Notes under the pieces: model-generated
What the model saw: the letters and a program-made list of their open reading frames with translations, nothing else
Databases searched by the model: none
What the model was told of the DNA's origin: nothing
Shown: piece after piece, positions 1,369 to 48,235 of the stretch
How positions within the stretch are numbered: position 1 is the first letter of the stretch
Layout of the letters: each line of letters begins with the position of its first letter
Made by a program: the position numbers and the translations under genes
Origin: Spirochaetota bacterium
Lineage (GTDB): Bacteria; Spirochaetota; GWB1-36-13; JAKPDD01
Direction of reading: 5' to 3'
NCBI GenBank assembly: GCA_029552945.1
Contig: JAKPDD010000032.1
Coordinates: forward strand, 62,001-126,000
DNA length: 64,000 nt

Positions 1369-4095
1369 ATGAAACTGAAAAAAGAAAAATTATTAACTTA
1401 CCTTATTTTATTATTTATTATAACAATAAACAATTGTCAATCAAAAAATCCATTTTACGGAATAGATGGTGAAGATAAGAGTGGGCCAGACATATATGTG
1501 GATTATCCCCCACCCGGGTCTCTTATTACAAGTACATTCACAATTATAGGAAGAGCAAAGGATAAGGGTGGGGATAACACAGTATTAAAAATTGAAATAA
1601 GTCTTGATAATGGTAATACATGGAATCTGGCAGGTGGAACAACAAACTGGTCTTATACTATAGATCCATTCTCAAGCTGGGGAATACTATCAAATCAAAT
1701 AAGGAACATATTAATCAAAGCAACAGATACAGATTACAAAAGAAATACAAATACAATAACAGTAAGTTACATTGTAAATAACACAAATCCAGATCTTTTA
1801 GGAAGTATAAAGGATTCAAATGATACTATAAAATATGATGGAACAGCAGGTTATGATGGATATCACAATAGTGCTGAAGGCAATACTATAAAATATGTAT
1901 GGGACAATATTCCAGGTGCACAAGGATATGAGATGACACTTTACAACATAACTGACAATCTATCTGCTATTGTCTCAATAGACACCCCAACACCAGGATC
2001 TCCCATTGATTGTAGTGCTGCTCTTGCTCCAACAGGTGTTAGCAATGCATCATTTGATTTTGATGGAACAAAACTTAGCCTTCAATTTGAAGGAGTAAAT
2101 GGAAAAAAATATTACCTTGCAGTAAAGCCTTACGATATAAGCTTACAAAGAGGGCCTGTGCAAATATCAATATCTGAAACAATTGACACAGTCCCCCCTA
2201 ATCCTGTTACAAACCTTAGAGTAAATGGTGAAATAGATACTGACCCAAATTACTTCAATACACGTAATATAACATTTTCGTGGAATCATGCCTCTGACCT
2301 CCATACAGGCATAAGATACTATAAAATAGATGTAAATAATGATGGGACATACGATATTACTGTTGACGGAAGTGTTAACAACTATACTTATACTTATAGT
2401 TCTGATGGTGCTTATACAGCAAGGGTAATATCTATTGATATGGCTGGCAATGTATCAGTACCCACAACAATAAGTTTTACTATAGACACAGCTAATCCCC
2501 CAGTAATAGCTGCAATAAATGATAACGGAACCATATATCTTACAAGAAAAGTAATACGAAATAACCATCAACCTGATGGCTTAAAAGTTGTAAAATATAC
2601 ATGGGCTGATATTGCTGATGCAAGGTACTATATTGTAAGAGTAAATGAAACTGTAAACGGTAAATATGACGAATATACAATAGACAAAAACTTAGGTTCA
2701 GGCACACTTGCAAACGGAACAAACACTGGAATAACCTCTGTAAACTGGTCATTATCAGGGGGGGCACTAACATTTTATTTTACAGGAACTGATGGAAGAA
2801 AATACTATATAGGGGTTAAACCTGTAGATAATGCAAACAATGTAGGTAATGAGACAACAAGTAATCTTGTGTGGGTTGACACAGTACTACCTACTGCAGG
2901 ATCTGTAACAGACCCCGGAAATTATATAAACTCAACAAGTATTACATTTTCATGGTCAGGTTTTATTGATGGAGAAACTGGAATTGAAAAATACTATGTT
3001 GCAAGCAGTGATGATGGAACAAATTGGTCTGCTGACCAGGACCTTGGTTTAGCAACATCAGTAACTACATCAGGATATGGAACCGAAACATTTGACAATG
3101 GTGAAAATGCAAGACTTAGAGGCAAAGCAATAGATTACGTAGGAAATGAAAGTTCATGGGCAATTTCCAACGGTATAATAGTAGATACAACTCCTCCTAC
3201 TTTTACAATAATCAATACACCAGTAACCGATACATATACAAATACAGGGCCAGTAAGTTTTACTGGATTTAACGGCTCTGATACTAATTTCAGGTATTAC
3301 GAGTATATGATAATAGACAATGGTGTTGCAGGTGCAATACAAACTACAGCTTTAGGAAATACAAATCCAACAATAATAATAGGAGTGCCTGTTACAAACC
3401 ATACATACAAAATAATAGCAAGGGCTATAGATCTGGCAGGTAATACATCTGGCTGGGTAACAAGTAATAGTATAACATATGATACTACACTACCCCCTGC
3501 CCCAACAAGTATTTTAGTAGATAATTCATCAACAACATTATACTATAACACTTCAAAAAATATTAATATAAGCTGGAGCTCAGTCACCGACTTTTCAGGA
3601 ATACAATACTATCAAATAGATATAAATAATGATGGAGTCCCAGATGGGGGTAATGAAACAGGAACATCAGCAACAAGAAATCTTGCTGTAGAAAATATAT
3701 ACCAGATAAGAGTAAGAGCAGTCGATAATGCTTCAAATATAGGTAATTGGTCAATCCCTATAACTGTACAAATTGATATGACTCAACCTAATGATATAAC
3801 AGGTCTTTCAGGTTCTTATACTGCCCCAAACGTAAACTTCACATGGGATGTTGGATCAGACAATACTGGTGGATCAGGAATTAAACAATATGTTATCCAA
3901 TACAACATTTCACCAGATGGTGGGACAAATTGGTTAGGATGGAGCCCTGATATAATAACTACAGTAACAAATTATAGTTTTGATGCAAGTGGTCTATCAA
4001 CTGGATATTCTGTTAAGATAAAAGTTAAAGTAGAAGATAATGCAGGGAACAGGTCTGTAAACTGGGTTGAGAGCTTGCAAGTTGATATCCCATAA
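1369..4095 (+). CDS. Large lipoprotein with tandem Ig/fibronectin-like domains
   Basis: The start is ATG 1369, with AGGA four bases upstream; a GTG at 1366 is too close to that site. The 908-residue product has a hydrophobic leader ending INNC, with Cys23 the likely lipidated residue, a loose lipobox of the spirochaetal kind. The rest is a chain of beta-sandwich repeats of about 90-110 residues, marked by recurring linkers such as IDTVPPNPVTNL, VDTTPPTFTI and YDTTLPPAPT and by YYKIDVNNDG-like strands. Such domains occur in exported adhesins and carbohydrate-binding proteins. No catalytic domain is visible, so it is probably a surface or periplasmic binding or spacer protein. Confidence 0.8.
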   Translation: MKLKKEKLLTYLILLFIITINNCQSKNPFYGIDGEDKSGPDIYVDYPPPGSLITSTFTIIGRAKDKGGDNTVLKIEISLDNGNTWNLAGGTTNWSYTIDPFSSWGILSNQIRNILIKATDTDYKRNTNTITVSYIVNNTNPDLLGSIKDSNDTIKYDGTAGYDGYHNSAEGNTIKYVWDNIPGAQGYEMTLYNITDNLSAIVSIDTPTPGSPIDCSAALAPTGVSNASFDFDGTKLSLQFEGVNGKKYYLAVKPYDISLQRGPVQISISETIDTVPPNPVTNLRVNGEIDTDPNYFNTRNITFSWNHASDLHTGIRYYKIDVNNDGTYDITVDGSVNNYTYTYSSDGAYTARVISIDMAGNVSVPTTISFTIDTANPPVIAAINDNGTIYLTRKVIRNNHQPDGLKVVKYTWADIADARYYIVRVNETVNGKYDEYTIDKNLGSGTLANGTNTGITSVNWSLSGGALTFYFTGTDGRKYYIGVKPVDNANNVGNETTSNLVWVDTVLPTAGSVTDPGNYINSTSITFSWSGFIDGETGIEKYYVASSDDGTNWSADQDLGLATSVTTSGYGTETFDNGENARLRGKAIDYVGNESSWAISNGIIVDTTPPTFTIINTPVTDTYTNTGPVSFTGFNGSDTNFRYYEYMIIDNGVAGAIQTTALGNTNPTIIIGVPVTNHTYKIIARAIDLAGNTSGWVTSNSITYDTTLPPAPTSILVDNSSTTLYYNTSKNINISWSSVTDFSGIQYYQIDINNDGVPDGGNETGTSATRNLAVENIYQIRVRAVDNASNIGNWSIPITVQIDMTQPNDITGLSGSYTAPNVNFTWDVGSDNTGGSGIKQYVIQYNISPDGGTNWLGWSPDIITTVTNYSFDASGLSTGYSVKIKVKVEDNAGNRSVNWVESLQVDIP

Positions 4096-4155
4096 TTTTT
4101 TGTTAAAATTTTTGGCTAAAATTTTTAATTTTAAAAATCTTCAAGGATAATAAAA

Positions 4156-5484
4156 ATAACAAATAAAATATTATTAATACAACCGCCAATTGAGGACTTT
4201 TATATAACATCAATAAGAAGACAACCATTAGGGCTTTTATATATTGCATCTGCTATAAAAAAAGCAGGATTTGAGCCTATTCTTCTTAATTGCCACTCTA
4301 ATAAAAGAAAAATAATAGAGATACCACAGGAGTTTTCTTATTTAAAAAAATATATAGAAAAAAAAATATTTCCCTTTCAATATTATTCACACTGGGGTCT
4401 AAGCTGGGAAGAAATAGAGAGAAGAATAAAAAATATTAACGTAGATGCGTTTGCAATATCATCAAACTTTACTACATACTATCAAGAAACAGACAAAATA
4501 ATAGAGATAATAAGAAAGTATCACAGTAAACCAATAATAATAGGTGGGCATCACAGCTCTTTATACCCTGAATACTACATAAATAAAAAAATAGACTTTA
4601 TAGTAAAAGGGGAAGGAGAAGAGCCAATAATAAGGGTAGTTTCATACCTTAAAACTGGAAATAAAGCATTCCTCTACACCAAAAAAATAATATCAGACCA
4701 CAAAGACAAAGACGAAGATATAAAGATTAATAATATTAATACAGATAATATACTTCCTGATAGAAACCTACTAAAAGAAAAAGATATAAAGTTTTATAAG
4801 AAAAAAGGGGCTTCAATAATTTTTTCTCGAGGATGCCCAAATAGATGCAATTTTTGTACATCAAAAGTAGTTTTTAACAATTACCAGGAAGGTAAGATAG
4901 AAAATATTGTTACTGAGATTGAAGACTGTTTAAATAGAGGAATAAGTGTATTTAATTTTGAAGATGATAATCTATTCGCAACACAAGAGATTGCTATAAA
5001 ATTACTTTTTGCCTTAAAAGAACTAAAAGAGAAATATCCTTACATAGAGTTTACAGCAATGAATGGGATCTCAATAGAAAAGATAAATGAAGATATTATA
5101 GATATTATGAAAGAATGTGGATTTAATGAGATAAATATCTCTTTGGTAACTTTATATGAAAAGACTCAAAAAACTTGCAACAGGCCATTTTATTCAGATA
5201 AATTTGAAAAAATAGCTTTATATTCTAAAAAAAGAGGATTAAACGTTAGAGGATACTTTATATTAGGGCTTCCTACGCAAACCAGAGAAGAAATTATAGA
5301 AATAAAAAAATTGAGTGAAACACTTAAGATAAAAATATTCCCTTCTGTGTATTACAATATTTTTAATAAAAAGCCAGATGAGTGGAAAATACAAAGATCA
5401 AGTGTCTTCCCTAATGAAACTGAATATTTATCAAGAGAATCATTAATCAATCTTTTCAATTTATTCGTAAAAGACCTAGGATAA
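4156..5484 (+). CDS. B12-binding-domain radical SAM protein lacking a canonical start codon
   Basis: The frame is open from the stop at 4132-4134 to 5484, but the first ATG is at 5059 and no GTG, TTG or CTG occurs earlier. Translation from the ATA at 4156 gives ITNKILLIQPP, exactly how cobalamin-domain radical SAM proteins begin, with AAGGA eight bases upstream. Read this way the protein has 442 residues: a Rossmann-like B12-binding region (about 4-140, with PIIIGGHHSSLYPEYY) and a radical SAM barrel with the cluster motif CPNRCNFC (Cys 227, 231, 234) and later GYFILGLPTQT. It probably performs a radical methylation or rearrangement; the substrate is unknown. A start at 5059 would delete the cluster. 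Either an ATA start is used or the start has been lost. Confidence 0.75.
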   Translation: MTNKILLIQPPIEDFYITSIRRQPLGLLYIASAIKKAGFEPILLNCHSNKRKIIEIPQEFSYLKKYIEKKIFPFQYYSHWGLSWEEIERRIKNINVDAFAISSNFTTYYQETDKIIEIIRKYHSKPIIIGGHHSSLYPEYYINKKIDFIVKGEGEEPIIRVVSYLKTGNKAFLYTKKIISDHKDKDEDIKINNINTDNILPDRNLLKEKDIKFYKKKGASIIFSRGCPNRCNFCTSKVVFNNYQEGKIENIVTEIEDCLNRGISVFNFEDDNLFATQEIAIKLLFALKELKEKYPYIEFTAMNGISIEKINEDIIDIMKECGFNEINISLVTLYEKTQKTCNRPFYSDKFEKIALYSKKRGLNVRGYFILGLPTQTREEIIEIKKLSETLKIKIFPSVYYNIFNKKPDEWKIQRSSVFPNETEYLSRESLINLFNLFVKDLG

Positions 5485-5503: not shown

Positions 5504-8014
5504 TTATTTTGACTTAATTTTTTTTAGTTCTTCTTGAATCTTATTTAGAAAAACCAATGCCTGTAAAGGTGTGGTATGATTAATATCAATTGCTTTTATT
5601 TTAGAGATTATAGGTTCATAATAAGATAAATTATCTTGCTCAAACAAGTTTAATTCATATTTCTTTTTAATAATTTTCTCTTCTTTATCCATTATCATCT
5701 GTATAGATGAGAGGATTTCAGTTGCTCTTTTAATTATTTTATCCGGTAAACCTGCAATTTGTGCAACATGTATTCCATAGCTTTTATCAGCTGCTCCTTC
5801 TTCAACTTTATGAAGAAAAACAACATCATTCTCAAACTCTTTTACAGCCATTCTATAATTTCTTACAACAGTTATTGTATCAAGTTTTGTAAGTTCATGA
5901 TAGTGTGTTGCAAAAAGGGTAAGGCCTCTATTCTCTTCTGTCAAATACTCAACAATTGACCATGCAATAGAAAGCCCATCATAAGTACTTGTCCCTCTAC
6001 CAACTTCATCCATTATAATAAGTGTACGTTCTGTTGCATTCCTTAAAATAGTTGCTGCTTCAGTCATTTCAACCAAAAAAGTACTTTCTCCTTCAGCAAT
6101 ATTATCAGAGGCACCAATACGGGTAAATATCTGGTCAAAAATTCCAATTCTTGCATAGCTTGCAGGTACAAAAGAACCAATATGAGACAAAAGTACAATT
6201 AAAGCTGCTTGTCTTATATAAGTAGACTTTCCAGCCATATTAGGGCCAGTAAGTATTATAAATCTTTTCTCCTCATCCATATATAAAGAGTTTGAGCAAA
6301 AATTATCAACAAACATTTCTACTACAGGATGTCTTCCATCTCTTATATCAATTACAATCTTATCATCTATTATTGGCCTCACATAGTTTCTTTCAATAGC
6401 AAGTAATGCTAAACTTGTGTAAAGATCAAGTTCTTTTATAAACTCAATATTACTCTTTATCACCTCATAATTCGAAATTAAATAATCAAGTAAATCATCA
6501 AATATCTTTTTTTCTATCTCCTCTATTTTGCTATTAGCCTCCTCTATCTTTGTTTCATATTCTATAAGTTCTGGTATAGTAAATCTCTCAGCATTAACTA
6601 AACTATGTTTTCTTATATAGTTTTTAGGAACTTTATCAAGATTAACTTTAGTCACTTCTATATAATAACCAATAATTTTGTTATAACCTATTTTAAGAGT
6701 ATTTATACCTGTCCTTTTTCTTTCCTCATCTTCAATCTTAAGTATATACCTCATGCTGTTTCTTGCAATATCCTTATATTCATCAAGCTCTTTATTAACT
6801 CCTTTTTTTATTACACCTTCATTATCTGCATTATCTGAAATAGTTGAGTTTATTCTATCTATTATTGGCAAAAGAGTTCCTACTTCTATATCAGGTTTAT
6901 AATAAGACTTTATATTTTCAATAACAGAAAAGCCTTCTGAAAGTTTAATTATATCCATATTTTTTACTTTTTTTAACATAACCCTACCAAATAATCTTTC
7001 AAGATCAAACCTTAACATAACAGATCTGATCTTATTAAGAATATCCTTATGATTCACAAAAAACTCTACTTTGTCAAGCCTTTCTTCAATTTTTTTCTTA
7101 TCCTTTAATGGATATGTCAGATAATTTCGTAGTAACCTTCCTCCCATTGGGCTTAGAGTAAGATTTATATTCGAAAACAAACTTGTATCTTTGGAAGTAG
7201 TAAACTGGGGTTCAAATATCTCAAGGTTATTTATTGTAGAATCGTTAAGATAAAGATAGTCACCATCTTTAATAATTTTAAAGTCTTTAATATAAGAAAT
7301 ATCTTTAGCCAGATTATTTTTAAGATATTTTAAAGCAGCAGCAACAGGTCCAAGTAAAAACTCTTTATCAAGGCCAAGCCCCTTAAGTGTTCCTGCATTA
7401 AAGTGATTTAATAAAAAAACCTCATTTAAAGATGGATTAAAATAGTAATCTGGCACAATTGTATAATAATAATCATCAATTATTTTATCTAGAGTTTCAT
7501 ATCTGGTATGTAATATTATTTCAGCAGGAGAAATAAGTCTTAGAGTCGATTTTAAAGATTCTGGATTATTTTTAGTATCTATAACAAAAAACTTGCCACT
7601 TGTAGCATCTATACAACATATACCAGCATTATCTTCAATTATCGAAATTGCAACTAAAAATGAATCTTTCCTGCTATTTATTTTTGTTTCATCAAAAAAA
7701 GTTGAGGGAGTTATTATTTCAACCACTTTTCTTTCAACTATTTTATTTCTCGAGGGCTCCTCAATCTGTTCACAAATAGCAATCTTTTTACCAGCCTTTA
7801 TAAGTTTATGTATATATGAATCTGCTGCATGAAAAGGTATACCGCACATTTTCTCATTATTTCTTTTAGTAAGTGCTATTTCAAGAATAGATGAGGCAAT
7901 CTCTGCATCTTCTCCAAACATCTCATAGAAATCACCTAGCCTAAAAAACAATATACAATCAGGATATTTTGACTTTATTCTTTTATACTGAAGCATCATA
8001 GGTGTTTCTTTCAT
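5504..8014 (-). CDS. mutS: DNA mismatch repair protein MutS
   Basis: The 836-residue product is full length for MutS, which binds mispairs and recruits MutL. The mismatch-wedging motif is FYE at 29-31, within FFRLGDFYEMFGEDA. Connector, lever and clamp domains occupy roughly 120-560. The ABC-type ATPase has Walker A GPNMAGKST at 590-598, Walker B LIIMDEVGRGTS near 665 and the ATHYHEL switch. The C-terminus ends in a short Lys-rich helix. It starts at ATG 8014 in MKETPMMLQY, the usual MutS N-terminus. It stands alone: mutL is not adjacent, and the convergent radical SAM gene ends 19 bases away. Confidence 0.97.
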   Translation of the reverse strand: MKETPMMLQYKRIKSKYPDCILFFRLGDFYEMFGEDAEIASSILEIALTKRNNEKMCGIPFHAADSYIHKLIKAGKKIAICEQIEEPSRNKIVERKVVEIITPSTFFDETKINSRKDSFLVAISIIEDNAGICCIDATSGKFFVIDTKNNPESLKSTLRLISPAEIILHTRYETLDKIIDDYYYTIVPDYYFNPSLNEVFLLNHFNAGTLKGLGLDKEFLLGPVAAALKYLKNNLAKDISYIKDFKIIKDGDYLYLNDSTINNLEIFEPQFTTSKDTSLFSNINLTLSPMGGRLLRNYLTYPLKDKKKIEERLDKVEFFVNHKDILNKIRSVMLRFDLERLFGRVMLKKVKNMDIIKLSEGFSVIENIKSYYKPDIEVGTLLPIIDRINSTISDNADNEGVIKKGVNKELDEYKDIARNSMRYILKIEDEERKRTGINTLKIGYNKIIGYYIEVTKVNLDKVPKNYIRKHSLVNAERFTIPELIEYETKIEEANSKIEEIEKKIFDDLLDYLISNYEVIKSNIEFIKELDLYTSLALLAIERNYVRPIIDDKIVIDIRDGRHPVVEMFVDNFCSNSLYMDEEKRFIILTGPNMAGKSTYIRQAALIVLLSHIGSFVPASYARIGIFDQIFTRIGASDNIAEGESTFLVEMTEAATILRNATERTLIIMDEVGRGTSTYDGLSIAWSIVEYLTEENRGLTLFATHYHELTKLDTITVVRNYRMAVKEFENDVVFLHKVEEGAADKSYGIHVAQIAGLPDKIIKRATEILSSIQMIMDKEEKIIKKKYELNLFEQDNLSYYEPIISKIKAIDINHTTPLQALVFLNKIQEELKKIKSK

Positions 8015-46898: not shown

Positions 46899-48235
46899 TT
46901 AAAAAAATACATCTAACTTACCATAAAAAAATATATCAGACCATTTACTATTTCTTTCTACATAACCTGGATTACGTACAAGAGTCTCTCTATCATTGTA
47001 ATGTGCACCAAAACTAAATTGACACCATACAGCAGCATCTTTCCATACATCTCTTTCCCACTCTTCCAATATCTTCGATCAGTGCTCCTTCCATTGACAC
47101 TGTTATTCTTGTAAAATAAAACTCCCAATTAATTCCCAAAAAAAGTCCTAGTATATACAAAGGAATATCAGTAAAAACAGCTGCTAATGTTAAAAATCCT
47201 CCTCCAATCAAGAAAGAGCTATCAAGGAATATCATAAAAGGAATCTGTGAAGTTACACCTGCACCAAAGGTATAAGGAAAGTCACTTTTTTCTGTAAAAT
47301 TATACTCTATAGAAGGGTCCTTAGTAGCATCATAATACCCACCAAATACATAAAAACCAATCCCCCACGCATATTTTTTAGAAAAATAGGCAGTTTCACC
47401 TTTTGCATCCCCTCTTATTAAGAATAGGTGTTCAATACCAAAAGTGCTATAATAAAAACTTTTATCTCTTGTAAAATATTCAGTTTCTATATTAAACCAT
47501 CCTAAAATACCTCTCGTATAAAGTTTTACATTATAATATTTATCGTATTTTTCGAACATTAATTCTAAATAATCAATAACACCCTTTTTCCCAGGATAAG
47601 TTATACCAAAACCTGGAATATCTTTTTTATCTTTAAAAACTTTATAGTATGAACTTAAATTCAAAAAAGGGATATTAAGCTCATAATAAAACCTATCATT
47701 TTTAGAACTCAAGGCATCTGAAGTAGCTGTCCTACTTAAAGGAGAATAAAATAAAAAAGGTGAATAGAAAGAAGATAATATATAACCAAACCCAAACTCA
47801 ACATAAGTATCTCCAACTACTGCTGGGGCATCATTCTTTTCATAGTACTCCCAAATACCGAAACTAACCTTACCACCAACCATTATAGTAGAACTTGAAT
47901 CTACAGAAGATGGCTTTGAATGAAGATAAAATATATTTACTTGAGAATAAGTATTTTCAAGCATTTTATTAGGAAAAATTGGAAATATTAATCCAGCTTG
48001 AAAAAGAGGATTTGAAGCCGGGTCATGTTTATAATCAAAAAATAGGTGAGTAACAGAATTATCCCTTCCCTCAAACCTATACTCGTCACCATCATGATAC
48101 CATATGCTACTTACAAGATAGGTATCTCTTACCTTTTCTCTGAAAAGATCAATTATATCCCATGAATACGAAAATAAGTTAGAATAAACAAAGACACTAA
48201 ATAAAAAAAAACAGAGAATAATAAGTTTTCTTCAA
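46899..48235 (-). pseudogene. Frameshifted outer-membrane barrel gene
   Basis: An uninterrupted 316-codon frame covers 47014-47964, but both ends continue in other frames. Upstream, TTG 48235 begins LKKTYYSL; after one base is removed from the T9 run (plus-strand A9, 48203-48211) it reads on as a signal peptide (FLFSVFVYSNLFSYSW) and then VRDTYLVSSIWYHDGDEY into the main frame, in which no ATG, GTG or TTG precedes 47964. Downstream, near 47070, the frame shifts by one base. The shifted frame gives KILEEWERDVWKDAAVWCQF and ends KWSDIFFYGKLDVFF at 46899, a proper barrel C-terminus with terminal Phe. The intact frame instead ends in the unlikely GKRCMERCCCMVSI. So one barrel gene of about 440 codons carries two frameshifts. 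Confidence 0.75.

Follow-up and report, generated by a model that had tools for sequence, protein, structure and literature searches.

A probable ATA start codon for a B12-binding radical SAM gene in a Spirochaetota bacterium

We describe a gene for a B12-binding radical SAM protein in a Spirochaetota bacterium that is probably intact and translated from an ATA codon at position 4156, a real but weak start. Positions without a contig name are those of the window, by which we mean the whole stretch of 64,000 nucleotides that was analysed; all others are given with their contig in the same genome (G000). The initial annotation of this DNA had left two alternatives for the gene, namely a rare ATA start, which would then be regulatory, and loss of the start through mutation or a fault in the assembly. 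Of these, the ATA start is now best supported, because the N-termini of the orthologues lie near 4156, because infC and probably a Fur/PerR-like gene of the same genome also start at ATA, and because the protein shows no clear decay; a regulatory role for ATA 4156 is unproven. The mechanism, initiation at a weak AUA codon, is already known, and the radical SAM gene is most likely a new case of it.

The forward-strand frame at 4135-5484 contains 449 codons without a stop, from behind the TAA at 4132-4134, which is the last in-frame stop ahead of the gene (further in-frame TAA codons lie at 4093, 4117 and 4126), to the TAA at 5482-5484. The usual start codons within it are an ATG at codon 308, a TTG at codon 336 and a GTG at codon 404, with no CTG listed among the start codons of this frame. 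This first in-frame ATG (5059-5061) stands 301 codons past 4156, too far into the frame for a functional enzyme to begin there, and the Pfam matches to the B12-binding and radical SAM domains both begin upstream of it. The frame listing and the Pfam matches together bear out the earlier description of an open, homologous frame whose first usual start, ATG 5059, falls beyond the CPNRCNFC motif. Annotation software limited to ATG, GTG and TTG starts would either overlook the enzyme or report no more than its final 141 residues.

The missing start sets this frame apart from its surroundings. On contig C3 (290,227 bases), it is the sole one among 209 non-overlapping frames, each of at least 180 codons, to have at least 100 codons before the first ATG, GTG or TTG. 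Its gap before a usual start is also the largest among 776 frames of at least 80 codons in a sample of 824,318 bases, or 44% of the 1,869,830-base genome, and is followed by one of 170 codons at C12:60915-62342. With a codon model built from C3, the codons between ATA 4156 and ATG 5059 score +63.5 bits as coding; the gene as a whole reaches 0.18 per codon, which places it at the 10th percentile of the C3 genes (mean 0.28). Sixty nucleotides upstream lies a 909-codon open reading frame in the same frame, with four in-frame TAA codons between the two, and a mutS-like gene on the opposite strand (5504-8014, named from its translation) faces the radical SAM gene from the other side.

Read from ATA 4156, the gene extends over 4156-5484 and comprises 442 codons plus the stop. 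Its likeness to the B12-binding radical SAM superfamily consists of two domains that both score over cut-off, the B12-binding domain at residues 61-158 (4336-4629; PF02310, 1.7e-17) and the radical SAM domain at residues 221-385 (4816-5310; PF04055, 1.5e-21), together with the CxxxCxxC iron-sulphur cluster motif, present as CPNRCNFC at 4834-4857, of which the CPN and the three cysteines are found in all six sequences displayed. No named B12-binding radical SAM equivalog was found among the 25 of 27 NCBIfam models listed, all of which score below cut-off; the best score among those listed, for NF038361, is 99 of 575 bits. The nearest chains among solved structures are only weak matches to the protein (6fd2_B, 1.7e-5). 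Judging by the superfamily, we presume that the reaction is likely to be a methyl transfer or a rearrangement. A paralogue in the same genome (C29:899-2224) starts at ATG.

Matches to the protein at 1e-30 occur in 35 of the 392 genomes of the phylum, and start regions were compared across 29 loci, including 15 with at least 41% identity to the window protein. In these 15 close orthologues, the family start column is occupied by ATG in 13 cases, TTG in one (L050) and ATA in one (L057), and this methionine column corresponds to window position 4162, an AAT two codons after ATA 4156. The window protein should therefore begin no more than a few codons away from 4162. The same alignment of start regions agrees with the earlier placing of the family N-terminus near 4156, the N-termini of the orthologues falling within two codons of that position. 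The sister genome from the same order (L002) has ATG at the start, and the ATA is unconserved at that distance. The order consists of two genomes, including that of the window; no relatives of the same genus or family were found, and searches for nearer relatives yielded two distant loci only among genome contigs and none among viral contigs. Conservation of ATA across the family is unsupported, since the sole other instance is ambiguous. In that orthologue, L057 (G138, of the same phylum), an ATA stands exactly at the family start column; the ambiguity arises because an in-frame ATG lies 28 codons upstream and there is no good Shine-Dalgarno sequence.

Near the start, the window contains four in-frame ATA codons, at 4147, 4150, 4156 and 4168, and only the one at 4156-4158 has a 5-nt Shine-Dalgarno match at the usual spacing. 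The match is the AAGGA at 4143-4147, with 8 nt between it and the ATA, just as the initial annotation had suggested. When matches of at least 5 nt at a spacing of 5-10 are counted as background in the 824 kb sample, they accompany 1214 of 78,820 ATA trinucleotides (1.54%), and the chance of such a match over four in-frame ATAs is about 6% (4 x 1.54%). We would regard the AAGGA as support for a start at 4156, not as proof. Taken with the nearby family methionine column and the ATA starts elsewhere in the genome, the Shine-Dalgarno spacing makes ATA 4156 the most likely start codon. Folding of the leader revealed no unusual stability (z -0.73; 41 of 200 shuffles fold equally well), the promoter scan returned 11 sites against 9.6 expected, and no terminator-like site was found.

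Other genes of the same genome appear to start in the same manner. The infC gene (L072, C23:5950-6456), identified by TIGR00168 (1.4e-66), lacks a nearby ATG; an AAGGAGG is followed by two ATA codons (C23:5950/5953) at spacings of 5 and 8, and the first ATG lies 58-59 codons downstream. Across the phylum, 15 of 30 genomes have no ATG, GTG or TTG around the aligned infC start (a manual count, spanning roughly 25 codons upstream and 7 downstream of that start). In both infC and the radical SAM gene, an ATA follows a Shine-Dalgarno sequence and ATG is absent from the vicinity; they differ in that infC possesses a full 7-nt Shine-Dalgarno match and belongs to a gene whose non-AUG starts are widespread in the phylum, whereas the match in the radical SAM leader is 5 nt and the orthologues mostly carry ATG.

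A scan of the 824,318 bases for ATA, ATT, ATC or CTG with a Shine-Dalgarno match of at least 5 nt, where coding sequence also had to precede the first usual start codon, yielded five genes, namely the radical SAM gene, infC, a Fur-family gene, C2:62371-63351 and C12:60915-62342. By reading, three of the five (radical SAM, infC and the Fur-family gene at C35:6604) have no upstream frame that continues the protein. The remaining two were set aside as apparent frameshifts, C12:60915-62342 on reading alone. The other, C2:62371-63351, belongs to a NuoF-like gene (L131:2371-3680, reverse strand) in which an upstream 116-residue open reading frame and the downstream frame are split at a short AT repeat, with the downstream half matching NuoF from profile position 117. 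Both of these frameshift-like genes reach the threshold of ATA or ATT plus a Shine-Dalgarno match, so that such matches do arise coincidentally. Adjoining the split NuoF-like gene is a 585-residue iron-hydrogenase-like open reading frame, named from its translation.

The Fur/PerR-like gene (L073:6604-7083, on contig C35; Pfam FUR, 3.1e-24) probably starts at the ATA at C35:6604, its first ATG lying 117 codons on with neither GTG nor TTG in between, and the ATA follows an AAGGA at a spacing of 7. Its same-order relative carries an AAAGGAG, with ATGs 1 and 5 codons beyond the aligned position as extrapolated without gaps. In the alignment with the NCBIfam PerR model, which scores below cut-off, residue 9 of the protein meets profile position 2, placing ATA 6604 about seven codons ahead of the start of the model. 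A general code of ATA starts in this genome is ruled out, given that 717 of the 776 long frames have a usual start within 20 codons; ATA after AAGGA is not enriched (ratio 1.01, compared with 1.82 for ATG). A reverse-strand frame that resembles ispE by eye (C7:16480-17349) runs for 76 codons without ATG, GTG or TTG and overlaps the end of an upstream frame; it may use an ATT start.

Under the proposed mechanism, the 30S subunit would bind the AAGGA at 4143-4147, and the initiator tRNA would pair with AUA at two of the three bases, a pairing that IF3 would disfavour. Initiation would then occur at ATA 4156, in the manner of the genome's own infC, with only part of the yield that an ATG would give, and the product would be a 442-residue cobalamin-binding radical SAM enzyme held at a low level. 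Three points are inferred here: ribosomes use codon 4156, the ATG of the sister genome represents the ancestral state, and output has been lowered.

Several bacterial precedents resemble this arrangement. In Staphylococcus aureus, infC, ccpN and citZ have AUA starts (PMC13009471), and the output of the ccpN and citZ starts is given as about 10% of that of AUG reporters in poor medium, and that of ccpN as up to 30% in rich medium. The ccpN and citZ genes share with the radical SAM gene an AUA start behind a Shine-Dalgarno sequence in an ordinary gene. Their starts were demonstrated with reporters and ribosome profiling, and their Shine-Dalgarno sequences are extended (PMC13009471), whereas the radical SAM start is predicted from sequence. 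The AUA of citZ is described there as limited to one strain lineage (PMC13009471), and the ATA of the radical SAM gene may be likewise restricted. In Listeria, ATG-to-ATA changes in rsbW reduce translation, in the order ATG > ATA > ATT (PMC13068326). The ATA and ATT changes in rsbW are of the same kind in a gene otherwise intact, but they arose in laboratory acid-selected mutants and affect a regulator (PMC13068326), whereas the gene in the window encodes an enzyme and belongs to a natural genome. For ralp3 of Streptococcus emm4, which has ATA where another lineage carries ATG, the authors suggest that little protein is made (PMC11238559).

If ATA 4156 is used, the short list of bacterial genes limited by a weak start would gain a metabolic enzyme and, probably, a regulator of the Fur family, and infC of the same lineage would serve as a built-in control. 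If it is unused, the gene would be a case of start loss preceding the decay of the protein. The latter is the strongest competing explanation, although we consider it unlikely: the start would have been lost recently by a G-to-A change, leaving a nearly silent gene, a pseudogene that is as yet undecayed. It accords with the ATG of the sister L002, which 12 more of the close orthologues share, with the several apparently frameshifted genes in this genome of 28% GC, and with the slightly larger numbers of departures and gaps in the window protein than in most orthologues. Of 92 columns that do not vary among the other 14 sequences, the window protein departs at 6, as does L054, compared with 0 to 4 for the other 13, and it contains 18 internal gaps, compared with 5 to 9 in the others. 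Against such a loss stand the 442 codons without a stop at 28% GC and the retention of the motifs; CPNRCNFC is kept, and the departures leave the cluster cysteines untouched. A 15-sequence tree pairs the window protein with that of the same-order genome (97/97), and the end branch of the window protein (0.74) is no longer than that of the sister (0.91). ATA starts, moreover, seem to be used elsewhere in the genome. We see no clear decay in the radical SAM protein, and these comparisons are compatible with a working enzyme.

A sequence or assembly error that hides a true ATG is less probable still. The assembly contains several apparent frameshifts at simple repeats, perhaps sequencing errors, which lends this explanation some weight; yet those faults look like changes of length in short repeats, whereas a substitution is needed here, and the Fur-family gene would require a like error at its own start. 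It is very improbable that translation begins elsewhere, at ATA 4147, 4150 or 4168, at AAT 4162, or in the 16-codon TTG-started frame at 4100-4150 followed by a change of frame: that frame does lie just upstream, other in-frame ATAs are present, and the orthologue L057 has an in-frame ATG 28 codons before its own ATA, but of these codons only 4156 is preceded, at a usual distance, by a 5-nt Shine-Dalgarno match, the orthologues have no matching extension, which rules out the change of frame, and the four in-frame TAA codons rule out read-through from the same-frame upstream gene.

With the start at ATA 4156 as the preferred reading, we also considered whether infC, the Fur/PerR-like regulator and the radical SAM enzyme could form a group of ATA-started genes whose translation follows the level of IF3. 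This would tie a cobalamin and iron-sulphur enzyme, together with a regulator of metal or peroxide responses, to the state of the initiation machinery. The 12-mer CTTCAAGGATAA could be a common control site in such a scheme, which we regard as a long shot. It occurs at two sites only in the genome, both on the forward strand (C3:66139-66150 and C35:6588-6599) and both just ahead of presumed ATA starts, those of the radical SAM and Fur-family genes; reversed controls gave counts of 0 and 1. The 12-mer is a weak lead only, because at least 12 nt are common to both members in 1.0% of the 13,695 AAGGA-leader pairs and because it was noticed post hoc. A gene for CsrA is present in the genome, and CTTCAAGGATAA may resemble the consensus of a CsrA site.

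Several further frames in this assembly are broken or lack a start. A reverse-strand frame at 47016-48231 of the window has a signal-peptide-like beginning and no start for 89 codons, and beside it a TTG-started frame enters a run of nine T, so that the locus looks frameshifted or variable. Apparent frameshifts also affect genes that, named from their translations, resemble a class II glutamine amidotransferase (C3:210284-211378, reverse strand), a patatin (C3:215575-216588, forward strand) and a CheA-like kinase (C35:2415-4463, reverse strand). The frameshifts at simple repeats may represent sequencing errors, real decay or slippage.
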